Shown here piece after piece: positions 1 through 45,718 of a stretch of DNA of 64,000 nucleotides; the stretch's first letter is position 1; every line of letters starts with the position of its first letter. This DNA comes from Spirochaetaceae bacterium (GTDB lineage Bacteria; Spirochaetota; Spirochaetia; Treponematales; Treponemataceae). The stretch is taken from positions 1 through 64,000 of the forward strand of contig JAFQDD010000008.1 in NCBI GenBank assembly GCA_017416145.1, written 5' to 3'. The notes under the pieces are model-generated. The model worked only from the letters and a program-made list of their open reading frames with translations, did no database searches and was not told the origin of the DNA. A program made the translations under genes and the position numbers.

Positions 1-250
1 GGAGAGAGAAAACCCATTTTTTTCGATAAAACGGGTTTTCTCTCTCCACACCTCTCTCTTTCCCAAAAAAACGACCAGAGAGTTTGCCACTCTCTGGACT
101 CTGGGCTACTAGGTTGGTTCTGAATTTAGAGTTATTTCCTTACGTGCTAAGATGATGTCAGGAATGGCTCTACGAGCATTCCGTGTGTACACAGTCACTG
201 TGCGAAGTCGAAGTAAAGTGTGTTGACTCTACGTCGAGAATAACTCTACA
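1..250 (+). repeat. Dispersed structured repeat, copy 1 (left end cut by window)
   Basis: Non-coding. It opens with a long hairpin (1-47): outer arms GGAGAGAG and CTCTCTCC, inner arms AAAACCC and GGGTTTT, and a TTTCGAT loop. A second hairpin at 75-97 has arms CCAGAGAG and CTCTCTGG. A tail follows with a GGAAT..ATTCC hairpin near 170-192 and a degenerate GCGAAGTCGAAGTAA motif. The same order of modules is seen inverted at 22826-23193 and, shortened, at 40030-40172. The arms differ in sequence between copies but remain self-complementary. It lies downstream of purN. Confidence 0.75.
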
Positions 251-22825: not shown

Positions 22826-23193
22826 ACACGGAATGCTCGTAGAGCCATTCCTGACATCATCCCAATCCCGTTACTTCGATTTCGCTCAGTAACCACATAC
22901 CCACGGAATGCTCGAAGAGCCATTCCTGACCACCAATCCCAGTCACGTTACTTCGACTTCGCTCAGTAACCACATACCCACGAAATGCTCGAAGAGCCAT
23001 TCCTGACATCATCCCCGTCACGTAAGGAATCAGCACAAAACATTCAGAACCAACATCCCCTGCCCAGAGTCCAGAGAGTGGCAAACTCTCTGGTCGTGCA
23101 AGGAAAGGTGGGGAGTATGAGGGGAGGAAAAACTACGCTTCGAAAGTAGTTGGTTTTCCTCCCCTCATATAGTTTACCAGCTTTCCAAAGCTG
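22826..23193 (-). repeat. Dispersed structured repeat, copy 2 (longest copy)
   Basis: Inverted relative to copies 1 and 3. Read on the minus strand: a CAGCTTTGGAAAGCTG hairpin (23193-23178); a long hairpin with 16-bp arms TATGAGGGGAGGAAAA and TTTTCCTCCCCTCATA and a TTCGA loop; the CCAGAGAG..CTCTCTGG hairpin (23093-23071); then a tail of three 75-77-bp units each with a GGAAT..ATTCC hairpin. The long stem differs in sequence from copies 1 and 3 but still pairs. It fills the gap between csrA and flgB. Confidence 0.8.
22829..23010 (+). repeat. Three tandem 75-77-bp units
   Basis: Units begin at 22829, 22904 and 22981. Each opens with CGGAATGCTCGAAGAGCCATTCC or a close variant and, in the first two, continues to a GTTACT..AGTAAC hairpin around TTCGCTC. 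The third is shortened. Copy 1 of the dispersed repeat has one such unit only, so unit number varies between copies. Confidence 0.8.
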
Positions 23194-23199
23194 ACCTAG

Positions 23200-40029: not shown

Positions 40030-40172
40030 CAGCTTTGGAAAGCTGGCAAACTTTATGAGGGGAAAAAACCCATTTTTTTCGATAAAACGGGTTTTCTCCC
40101 CTCATACTCCCCACTTTCCCAAAAGAACGACCAAAGGGAATTACATCCCTTTGGAATCCCTGTTTTTATAGA
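40030..40172 (+). repeat. Dispersed structured repeat, copy 3 (short)
   Basis: Starts with the CAGCTTTGGAAAGCTG hairpin (40030-40045). The long hairpin (40057-40103) has arms GAGGGGA/TCCCCTC and AAAACCC/GGGTTTT with symmetric A-C mismatches and a TTTCGAT loop. A second hairpin (40131-40154) reads CCAAAGGG..CCCTTTGG where copies 1 and 2 read CCAGAGAG..CTCTCTGG, a paired change. The GGAATG tail units are missing. It sits between sbcD and sbcC. Confidence 0.8.
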
Positions 40173-42391: not shown

Positions 42392-45300
42392 TCACGGTCT
42401 CCCAGCAATTGGAAAGTCTTGCCTTCTTAGGTCTTTTTGTGGCACTTGTTCATAGCCCCATTTTTCATAGCTTCTCTCTGGTACTTCGTTTTCTACATAA
42501 CTTGCTAATTCTAAAAGTGTTACAAAACCATCATCATTACTGTCGGCTTCTCCCTTTAAGCCTTCTAGCAACACATATGTAAATACACCATGTCCTTCAT
42601 AGCCTTCCATTGCTGATTGACTATCTGATGATGCTGCTAATGTTGCATGTCCCGTTGCTCTTGTCAACCTGTCTATCGCTGTTTTCTCGCTTAAGCCTCT
42701 CTGTCCTGAATCTGCAAAAAAAGCTCCTGAATTACATGTATCCAACATCAATAATGTTTTTCCTGCTTTTATTAATGATAGATTTTCTATCAAATCATTC
42801 TTTGATACACCTTGTATTGGTATTTCTTCTCTACTTGTATATCTAATATTTACTGGTAAATAATAATAGTCTCCGTCATCATAAGTTGTACCATGTCCTG
42901 AAATATAAAAGATAAAGACATCGTCTGCTGTTACTAAATTTGATAATCTTTCAAATACTTCTCTGATTCCTTCTTTGGTTACTTCCCCATCTTGTAATGA
43001 TGACACATATACTTTTTCATACAATCCTGATTCTTGTGTCTTGAATGATTCTGCTATTGCATTTGCATCTGGTACACAATAATTTAACCAAAGAGATTTA
43101 TCTCTGTATTTATTTATTGCCAATGTTAATACATACAGATTTGGTTTTGAGGTTGCTCCTTCCCATTTTATTGCATTACTTGAACGACGGCTTTCTACCA
43201 TGCCACTGCCGTTGTATGCAAATGCCTCTATGGTGTTTTCTCCGTTTTGTAAGGTTATTGTATGCCTAAAGTTTACTGTTTGCCCTGTTGAGGATGACAC
43301 ACCCTCTGACAATTGGATTGTTTTTCCATTTAGCACAAGATTTACTTTCCCTATTCCGCCACCTGTGTTTTTTACACATACATCAAAGGTGATGTCTTTG
43401 CTTGTTGGGTTTTCTGGTAGATTTTCTAAGGTTACAACTGGTACACTACCGCTACGAACAAGGGAAGCAAGGTTTACCTCTTTTGCGTACATGGAGATGT
43501 CCTCACCTCGCATTTTTGCTGCCACTAAGTCTGGGCGATAAAGTTTGTCGTAGACTTGGTCTATACCGATTACTTCTAACCCGTCTACAATATGCACAAG
43601 GTTCTTTGTTGTCCATTCGCTACCTGTAAAAAAGCCTTCTGGAGTATAAGTTAGCCATTCTCCATCTTTGCCGTTTATGATTGTGTAGATAAGTTCTCCT
43701 GTTTCTACGTTCCAGAGTTTTACAGTACCATCCAAACTTCCACTTACTAGGTATTTATCATCAGGGCTAAAATTGATGGAATATACTTTTTCTGTATGAC
43801 CAGAAAATAACATTCTTTCTCCACTATCTACTTCCCACAGCTCTATTTTTTTATCCCAGTCTCCGCTCCCAGTTGCAATATACTTTCCGTTTGGACTTAA
43901 ACTTCCAGAATATACACTTCTGAAGGTCTCATAAAATGTCTTTTTTAATTCTCTTGTTTCAACATCCCATAGTCTCACTTTACCATCTTCAGTTACAATT
44001 ACTATATATTTCCCATTGGAAGTAAAACTTAAAAAATTTACATTATACGTATAATCAGAAAATGTACTTATCTCTTCACCGTTCTCTACATTCCATAGTT
44101 TTACTGTATTATCAATACTTCTACTTATTACATATTTTCCATCAGGACTAAAATTTACAGAAACTACACTATCTGTATGACCAGTTAATGTCCTTATTTC
44201 TTTTCCACTCTCTACTTCCCATAATCTTACTGTATTGTCTCCACTTGCACTTACTACGTATTTCCCATCAGGACTAAAACTTACAGAGTATACATAATCT
44301 GTATGACCTGAAAATGTCCCTATTTCTTTTCCACTCTCTACTTCCCATAATTTTATTGTATTGTCATCACTTTCAATTAAAAGGGATTTACTATCGGGAC
44401 TAAAAGTTACAGATGGTGTATTTATATGAAAAGAAGTCCATATTTCTTTTCCATTCTCCAAATTCCAAACTTTTACTGTTACATCCTTATAAATTCCACC
44501 TGTACTTACTAGATATTTCCCATCTGGGCTAAAACTTACAAATGCTATAGTGTCTGTATGAAGATAAAATGCCCATATTTCTTTTCCTTTTTCTACATCC
44601 CAGACTTTTACTGTACCATCATCACTTCCACTTACTATGTATTTCCCATCAGGACTAAAACTTACAAAATATATTTGACTTGAATGAGAAGAAAAAGCTC
44701 TTATTTCTTTACCACTCTCAACTTCCCAAAGTTTTACTGTTTTATCCCAACTGCCGCTTGCTAGATATTTCCCATCAGGACTAAAACTTACAGAGTACAC
44801 AACATCATCCGTATGTCCAGTTAATGTCCTTATCTCTTTCCCACTATCTACTTCCCAGAGTTTTACTGTATTATCATAACTTCCACTTGCTATATATTTC
44901 CCATCGGGACTAAAACTTACAGAATCCACGGTATCCGTATGACCAGTTAACGTCCTTATTTCTTTTCCACTCTCTACTTCCCAGAGTTTTACTGTATCAT
45001 CAGAACTGCCACTTGCTAGGTATTTCCCATCGGGACTAAAACTTACAGAGTTTACCCAATCTTTATGACCAGTTAATGTCCCTATTTCTTTTCCACTCTC
45101 TACTTCCCATAATTTTACTGTATTGTCTCTACCTGCACTTGCTATGTATTTCCCATCAGGACTAAAACTTACAGTCTGTACCCCTGCAGAATGCCCAGTA
45201 AAACTGTTAATCTCTTTACCACTTTCAATATCCCATAATTTCACTGTAGAGTCATACTCTCCGCTACTTACAAGATATATTCCATCGGGACTAAAACTTA

Positions 45301-45718
45301 CAGAGTTTACCCAATATTCATGACCAGGTAATATGTTTTTTATTTCTTTTCCACTCTCTACTTCCCATAGGATTATTTCATTAATAGATCCCCCCACGAT
45401 ATATTTTCCACTAGGACTAAAACTCACAGTAAAGATACCCCAATAATGAGTAAATTCTCTTATTACTTTTCCACTATCAACGTCCCATACTTTTACTGTA
45501 TCATCTTGACTTCCACTTGCTATATATTTACCATCAGGACTAAAACATACAGAGTTTACAGGAGCTACATGCCCAGTCTGAAACTTAATCTCCAGCTTCC
45601 CTAATGTACTTTCACTCTCGGTAATCGTTTCTGCAACAATTCCACGATTTGTGGTTTGGGCAAAGGTTAGGGTTGCTAAAATAAGTAGTGTTATGGTAAT
45701 TGTTAGTTTTTTTTGCAT
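42392..45718 (-). CDS. Secreted WD40-repeat caspase-like (C14) protease
   Basis: Protein of 1108 residues. A signal peptide (LTITITLLILATLTFAQ) predicts export. Residues about 50-680 hold 15 WD40 repeats of about 42 residues (SVSFSPDGKYLASGS..TVKLWEVESGKEI), enough for two propellers. A linker with an Ig-like segment follows, then a caspase-like domain (858 on) with YVLTLAINKYRD, catalytic His942 in YISGHG and Cys995 in LDTCNSG. An EF-hand-like loop DSNDDGFVTLLE (1059-1070) suggests calcium dependence. It overlaps the ARMT1-like gene by 16 bp, so translation is coupled. The substrate is unknown. Confidence 0.88.
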   Translation of the reverse strand: MQKKLTITITLLILATLTFAQTTNRGIVAETITESESTLGKLEIKFQTGHVAPVNSVCFSPDGKYIASGSQDDTVKVWDVDSGKVIREFTHYWGIFTVSFSPSGKYIVGGSINEIILWEVESGKEIKNILPGHEYWVNSVSFSPDGIYLVSSGEYDSTVKLWDIESGKEINSFTGHSAGVQTVSFSPDGKYIASAGRDNTVKLWEVESGKEIGTLTGHKDWVNSVSFSPDGKYLASGSSDDTVKLWEVESGKEIRTLTGHTDTVDSVSFSPDGKYIASGSYDNTVKLWEVDSGKEIRTLTGHTDDVVYSVSFSPDGKYLASGSWDKTVKLWEVESGKEIRAFSSHSSQIYFVSFSPDGKYIVSGSDDGTVKVWDVEKGKEIWAFYLHTDTIAFVSFSPDGKYLVSTGGIYKDVTVKVWNLENGKEIWTSFHINTPSVTFSPDSKSLLIESDDNTIKLWEVESGKEIGTFSGHTDYVYSVSFSPDGKYVVSASGDNTVRLWEVESGKEIRTLTGHTDSVVSVNFSPDGKYVISRSIDNTVKLWNVENGEEISTFSDYTYNVNFLSFTSNGKYIVIVTEDGKVRLWDVETRELKKTFYETFRSVYSGSLSPNGKYIATGSGDWDKKIELWEVDSGERMLFSGHTEKVYSINFSPDDKYLVSGSLDGTVKLWNVETGELIYTIINGKDGEWLTYTPEGFFTGSEWTTKNLVHIVDGLEVIGIDQVYDKLYRPDLVAAKMRGEDISMYAKEVNLASLVRSGSVPVVTLENLPENPTSKDITFDVCVKNTGGGIGKVNLVLNGKTIQLSEGVSSSTGQTVNFRHTITLQNGENTIEAFAYNGSGMVESRRSSNAIKWEGATSKPNLYVLTLAINKYRDKSLWLNYCVPDANAIAESFKTQESGLYEKVYVSSLQDGEVTKEGIREVFERLSNLVTADDVFIFYISGHGTTYDDGDYYYLPVNIRYTSREEIPIQGVSKNDLIENLSLIKAGKTLLMLDTCNSGAFFADSGQRGLSEKTAIDRLTRATGHATLAASSDSQSAMEGYEGHGVFTYVLLEGLKGEADSNDDGFVTLLELASYVENEVPERSYEKWGYEQVPQKDLRRQDFPIAGRP
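43680..45590 (-). repeat. Tandem WD40-coding DNA repeats, period about 126 bp
   Basis: The WD40 part is repetitive at DNA level: stretches such as CCATCAGGACTAAAACTTAC recur in unit after unit with few changes, including synonymous sites. Such repeats can recombine and change propeller number between strains. Confidence 0.75.

Follow-up and report, generated by a model that had tools for sequence, protein, structure and literature searches.

A dispersed DNA repeat of treponeme-like spirochaetes with a core probably selected to fold as two tandem intrastrand triplexes

We analysed a stretch of 64,000 nucleotides (the window) that is contig C7 of the assembled genome of a Spirochaetaceae bacterium (2.9 Mb in 35 contigs; below, the host genome). 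Three copies of a dispersed hairpin element lie in it, at 1 to ~260 on the plus strand (copy 1), at ~22826–23194 on the minus strand (copy 2) and at 40030–40160 on the plus strand (copy 3), the last of them between the co-directional genes sbcD and sbcC. Position 1 falls inside copy 1, and this copy lacks its left part because the assembly breaks at the repeat and the window starts at the contig end. Flagellar genes were also seen; together with the Rfam TD-1 and TD-2 families in relatives, they suggest Treponemataceae as the likely family of the host. Positions 42392–45718 encode a large protein in which beta-propeller repeats are combined with a caspase-like domain at the C terminus (model NF047832, below cut-off).

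An earlier note on this DNA had described the element as a small hairpin, a long hairpin with a TTCGA loop, a second hairpin and, in two copies, GGAAT..ATTCC units, and we found the three copies and this order again. The long hairpin (hairpin 1) is indeed present in all three, with the qualification that copy 2 belongs to a different loop subfamily (AACTAC..TTCGAA..GTAGTT). The second hairpin (hairpin 2) is, as stated there, CCAGAGAG/CTCTCTGG in two copies and CCAAAGGG/CCCTTTGG in the third. What had been overlooked is a third, mirror-symmetric tract beside each hairpin, so that the hairpin alone is an incomplete description; we call the strand opposite to the one first read the triplex strand. 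In copy 3, a small flanking hairpin (CAGCTTTGGAAAGCTG, 40030..40045, plus strand) precedes hairpin 1, which has its purine arm at 40057–40071 and, after a loop, its pyrimidine arm at 40089–40103 (plus strand). The third tract of hairpin 1 is at 40107..40120 on the minus strand, reading CTCCCCACTTTCCC on plus and GGGAAAGTGGGGAG on the triplex strand. Hairpin 2 follows on the plus strand (CCAAAGGG at 40131–40138, CCCTTTGG at 40147–40154), with its own third tract at 40155..40160 on the minus strand (AATCCC on plus, GGGATT on the triplex strand).

Hairpin 1 of copy 1, cut by the contig end, has its purine arm at 1–15, a loop at 16–32 and its pyrimidine arm at 33–47 on the plus strand, the triplex strand here being minus; its third tract at 51..64 on the minus strand (CCTCTCTCTTTCCC on plus, GGGAAAGAGAGAGG on the triplex strand) mirrors the arm GGAGAGAGAAAACCC. 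Hairpin 2 of this copy is a long-form variant with arms at 75–82 and 90–97, then the tract ACTCTGG at 98–104 (plus strand), and a tail module GGAATGGCTCTACGAGCATTCC lies at 161..182 (plus strand). In copy 2 the plus strand is the triplex strand and the parts come in the reverse order. Its tail holds three spaced GGAATGCTC..GAGCCATTCC-type units at 22830..23003 on the minus strand. Hairpin 2 has the tract CCAGAGT at 23064–23070 and arms at 23071–23078 and 23086–23093, all on plus. The third tract of hairpin 1 (GGAAAGGTGGGGAG, 23102..23115, plus strand) comes next, then hairpin 1 itself (23119..23166, plus strand; purine arm 23119–23133, loop, pyrimidine arm 23152–23166) and a small flanking hairpin (CAGCTTTCCAAAGCTG, 23178..23193, minus strand). 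The GGAAT..ATTCC-type units noted before are thus those at 161–182 of copy 1 and those that start at 22830, 22905 and 22982 in copy 2, the last with GAAATG.

The earlier note had let its reading depend on further copies in the genome and on covariation in them, and both were found. BLAST with 260 bases returned 35 matches in the host genome, and a covariance model built from 19 copies gave 89 hits there, at about 50 distinct places once the opposite-strand echoes of the palindromes are set aside. This model matches 28 of 59 relatives. At a stricter setting over the whole phylum it matches 30 of 296 genomes, namely 26 of the same family, 3 of the same order and 1 of another family. The repeat family is scattered in treponeme-like spirochaetes, with its occurrences gathered mainly in a single family of the phylum. 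The host genome (L192–L197) shares a nearly identical core with another genus (L128). The linker of the host-genome copies, searched for in 40 relatives, had matches in the host genome only, and its pattern across 85,000 genomes had one match, in a coding gene, which we judged to be a chance match. A search of the literature with partial coverage gave no report of these repeats in Treponema.

The matching changes reported for the long stem hold in a larger alignment. In 12 equal-length copies, 97.8% of the cells are paired and 9 of 15 pairs vary on both sides, and the covariation score was not reached in any of 500 shuffles or by slid structures. Over 119 copies, 1048 of 1071 stem cells are Watson-Crick pairs. 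The selection on structure proposed in the earlier note is supported by these data. The 3′ arm or the third tract has been lost from a few copies. In four host-genome copies (L014, L027, L195, L200) a palindrome, GCAAATTGCTGCGAGTCTCGCAATTTGC, replaces much of the 3′ arm of hairpin 1, and in the genomes G026, G027 and G033 other small palindromes are seen between hairpin 1 and its third tract.

Side by side, the copies show a mirror image of the 3′ arm, made of pyrimidines, 2–4 bases after each hairpin on the strand first read. Along the triplex strand this becomes a purine tract and, after a short loop, the purine arm, then a further loop and the pyrimidine arm; copy 3, for example, has GGGAAAGTGGGGAG-TAT-GAGGGGAGAAAACCC-loop-GGGTTTTTTCCCCTC. 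The tract changes with the arm between copies; on the strand first read, GAGGAGAGAAAACCC goes with CTCCTCTCTTTCCC, GAGAGAGGAAACCCC with CTCTCACCTTCCCC and GAGGGGAAGGAACCC with CTCCCCAACCTCCC. Such a mirror relation is not obtainable by Watson-Crick pairing; it is what the third strand of a purine-motif triplex needs. The layout is that of a predicted class I purine-motif intrastrand DNA triplex, with two units in tandem. We counted matches in the purine part of the tract (231 cells) in 21 curated host-genome copies, which had been picked by their linker and second-hairpin motifs and not by the mirror, and 222 of these cells obey G.GC, A.AT or T.AT with their own arm. When the third tracts were dealt to other copies, 158 ± 7.6 cells did so, and none of 200,000 shuffles reached 222. 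With one copy for each of the 14 distinct arms the count was 149 of 154 versus 102 ± 6 (0 of 500,000 shuffles).

This signal extends to other genomes. Among 91 distinct copies from 21 genomes, the match to the own arm was 773 of 819 versus 655 ± 7 in shuffles (0 of 100,000). Copies are related within genomes, so that these shuffles overstate the significance; drawing one copy per genome lessens this effect and gave a z of about 5.8, the observed value being unreached by 2000 shuffles in each of 200 draws. A further set of 33 distinct copies from 14 additional genomes, fetched after the 91-copy test and treated by the identical procedure, gave 8.42 versus 7.19 of 9 (z 8.9, 0 of 100,000) as an independent result. 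The covariance model holds no pairs in the third tract and is thus unable to generate the mirror signal. Hairpin 2 shows the same design in smaller form, and the length of its G run equals that of the run in its third tract in 43 of 61 copies versus 23.6 ± 3.5 (0 of 20,000). Over about 35 genomes, the two arms and the third tract were shown to co-vary in the way predicted for purine-motif (reverse-Hoogsteen) triplets G.GC, A.AT and T.AT. We know of no copying process that makes such three-strand mirror changes by itself; polymerases, to our knowledge, make no mirror copies.

The kinds of substitution also point to this type of triplex. On the triplex strand, the third base opposite an arm G (G-C pair) is G in 495 of 515 cells. 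Opposite an arm A (A-T pair) it is A in 177, T in 68, G in 11 and C in 4 cells, and in the new set of 14 genomes A in 54, T in 17, and G and C in 1 each. Because T.AT is allowed in the purine motif, T is expected there as the main alternative, and it is unexpected for a pyrimidine motif on the other strand. A pyrimidine-motif (class III) reading of the strand first read was tried and rejected; it accounts for 205 versus 222 of 231 cells and leaves the T.AT exchanges unexplained. Where the arm is interrupted by a pyrimidine, the third base is T opposite C in 6 of 6 cases (four genomes) and C opposite T in 4 of 6. At the top of the stem there are as many C as there are G at the distal end of the tract (53 cells), and a third G opposite an arm C is a non-standard triplet for the purine motif. 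In mismatched arms, which include a recurrent C.T mismatch, the third tract agrees with the triplex strand's purine arm rather than with the other arm (63 versus 15). A scan of 464 kb of the host genome, partly selected for holding copies and thus giving no density estimate, found strong motifs of class I but none of class II, and motifs of that strength were absent from ~300 kb of relatives and from shuffled sequence. As a separate observation, a single-copy class I triplex-like hairpin of unrelated sequence, so far unproven, lies right after the stop codon of a groEL-like gene in another genome (G002, C2:2499–2545, L073).

The third tract and the adjacent arm by themselves form a purine mirror repeat with a centre of 2–4 nt, in which the tract tracks that arm. 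This is what would be expected of classical H-DNA, where such a mirror repeat opens in supercoiled double-stranded DNA and the inverted repeat is incidental or forms a separate cruciform. We consider this account unlikely, since H-DNA needs no complementary distal arm, yet pairs of the long stem change on both sides and nearly all stem cells are paired, as given above. Recognition of the arms and the third tract as linear DNA by one or more proteins, with the mirror as repeated contacts, would agree with the conserved linker and loop motifs and with the stem C.T mismatch that recurs in many genomes. A reader of fixed sequence would not, however, allow dozens of arm sequences that are each matched by a third tract, nor tolerate the exchange of A and T with C or G rare at A positions, and we think this explanation improbable as well. 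These two are the strongest remaining rivals, and the RNA and transposase explanations discussed below are weak.

A structured RNA, or a transcription terminator or attenuator on either strand, would be in keeping with the stable hairpins, with the intergenic position near genes and with tails that in some relatives match Rfam TD-2. The genes around 115 copies, however, stand in all four orientations (-- in 38, +- in 31, ++ in 25 and -+ in 21), in line with the earlier note, which had seen both orientations and argued against a plain terminator, and copy 3 lies between two co-directional genes. Traits of intrinsic terminators are missing, in that 21 of the 115 copies are between divergent genes and no T run follows the stems in copies 1–3. 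Hairpin 1 is at most 30 bp from a gene in 53 of the 115 copies, and the other side, with the variable module tail, in 10. The stems contain one G-T pair (on the strand first read) and 16 A-C cells, and this near-absence of G-T wobble favours DNA over RNA. The core had no match above threshold in Rfam, where sub-threshold hits to plant and animal miRNAs were taken as chance. Purine-motif triplexes are, moreover, reported not to form in RNA (PMC4666352). An RNA explanation is very unlikely on these grounds. Of the two possibilities named in the earlier note, a structured RNA or a palindromic mobile DNA, dispersed palindromic DNA of a mobile type is the one favoured, since the third tract co-varies by the rules of purine-motif triplexes, which points to DNA. 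In two relatives, four copies (L118, L135, L136, L290) are followed on the same strand by TD-2 (RF03162), which starts 16–48 bp beyond the core, and TD-1 (RF03155) is found near L137. TD stands for Treponema denticola. These candidate RNAs cover the tail and not the triplex core, and may themselves belong to the composite repeat as modules.

The closest known kind of element is the intrastrand triplex motif of E. coli and other bacteria known as PIT, BoxC or TM, of which the potential intrastrand triplex (PIT) elements were reportedly described by Hoyne in 2000. Both kinds have one strand with a third tract and with purine and pyrimidine blocks that obey G.GC, A.AT and T.AT, and both are multi-copy, mostly intergenic and without preferred orientation; the E. 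coli motif also has a T opposite one A. In contrast, the E. coli TM/BoxC motif is class II (pyrimidine–purine–third) with an almost invariant sequence, whereas the spirochaete family is class I (third–purine–pyrimidine) with other sequences, a tandem double unit, long hairpin loops and widely varying arms with matching third tracts. Holder et al. 2015 described four classes of intrastrand triplex and found that the E. coli motif folds in vitro, that the folded form was undetected in vivo, that the repeats have no promoter or terminator activity and that the motif is associated with genome instability (PMC4666352). Compensation or covariation is unmentioned in the text of that paper, and its ITxF search has a loop limit of 6 nt (PMC4666352), so that hairpin 1 would be missed. 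The role of intrastrand DNA triplexes in living cells has been an open question since PIT elements were described, and comparing sequences gave no answer, because the E. coli motif is near-invariant and in vivo tests of it were negative. The spirochaete family offers many natural copies whose three strands vary jointly and obey triplex rules. With so many differing natural copies, the question becomes directly testable with matched and mismatched variants, and the family could help to find a protein that recognises triplex DNA in its folded form.

On the evidence of sequence comparison, we regard it as probable that treponeme-like spirochaetes have in this element a dispersed non-coding DNA repeat of modular build, whose core consists of two tandem class I intrastrand triplex units and is selected as a fold. 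One strand of this ~105-bp core would carry the third tract, purine arm, loop and pyrimidine arm of hairpin 2, then a linker and the same series for hairpin 1. When single during replication, repair or transfer, this strand would fold into a compact double triplex hairpin. If copies with all three tracts matched alone keep being propagated, the element would behave as non-autonomous mobile or recombinogenic DNA, which may be recognised by its folded shape. More tentatively, the double DNA triplex could be the recognition structure of a spirochaete mobilisation or recombination machinery, with the matched fold selected and the cores swappable between carriers, a possibility that we consider rather doubtful.

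Like REP and BIME sequences, the element is an intergenic palindromic repeat that occurs in arrays. As a side observation, ~140-bp units that each hold the hairpin 2 motif form a tandem array at one place in the host genome (L017, C6:78107–78630). Movement of REP-type repeats by a Y1 (RAYT) transposase would suit short dispersed palindromes with species-specific subfamilies, and a REP-associated transposase had been suggested in the earlier note. Against this, the Y1 transposase model (PF01797) has no match in the host genome and none in most element-rich relatives (e.g. G020, G048, G050, G178, G216 and G223), and the spirochaete repeat differs from REP and BIME also by its third tract and its much longer composite unit. 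We thus give this explanation hardly any credence.

In host-genome copies, homology starts upstream of the core, at module borders that are used preferentially. Three host-genome copies (L189, L190, L193) lie in ~316-bp MITE-like units with TGTCAA..TTGACA ends and exact 16-bp target duplications (GACAAAATGAATGTTA, GAATCAAGTTTTATGC and TATTTGTATTAAGAAC), and these hold different triplex cores within nearly alike flanks. Some copies would also move within a small unit that resembles a transposon and has TGT..ACA as its ends, in the format of IS1202-group MITEs; ISTde1 of Treponema denticola, a member of that group, has a 17-bp target duplication (PMC10132070). Unlike in such MITEs, the core also occurs without these ends elsewhere in the host genome and in other genomes, TGT/ACA ends with ~16-bp duplication fitting L189, L190 and L193 and not most core copies. 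Differing cores in the same flanks are a further difference, as is the absence of a matching ISNCY_2/IS1202-type transposase from the host genome by model NF033594, the only model tried. In the relative G044, rpn/PD-(D/E)XK-type genes have ~27 matches, and several of these genes are interrupted by the core. Three rpn-type genes there (L168, L171, L174) hold the core, without duplication, where intact paralogues (L237, L252, L255) have ~57 bp. A clean insertion was considered and rejected for these genes, because the junctions show ~57 bp replaced instead, and apparent target duplications around the copies proved to be a shared flanking repeat. The shared junctions suggest one event that was later amplified. 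L193 has a counterpart, L194; the compared 2.6-kb stretches (C9:145625–148727 and C17:67041–70143) are 100% identical, the element copy included, and this identity reflects a recent segmental duplication or a duplication in the assembly.
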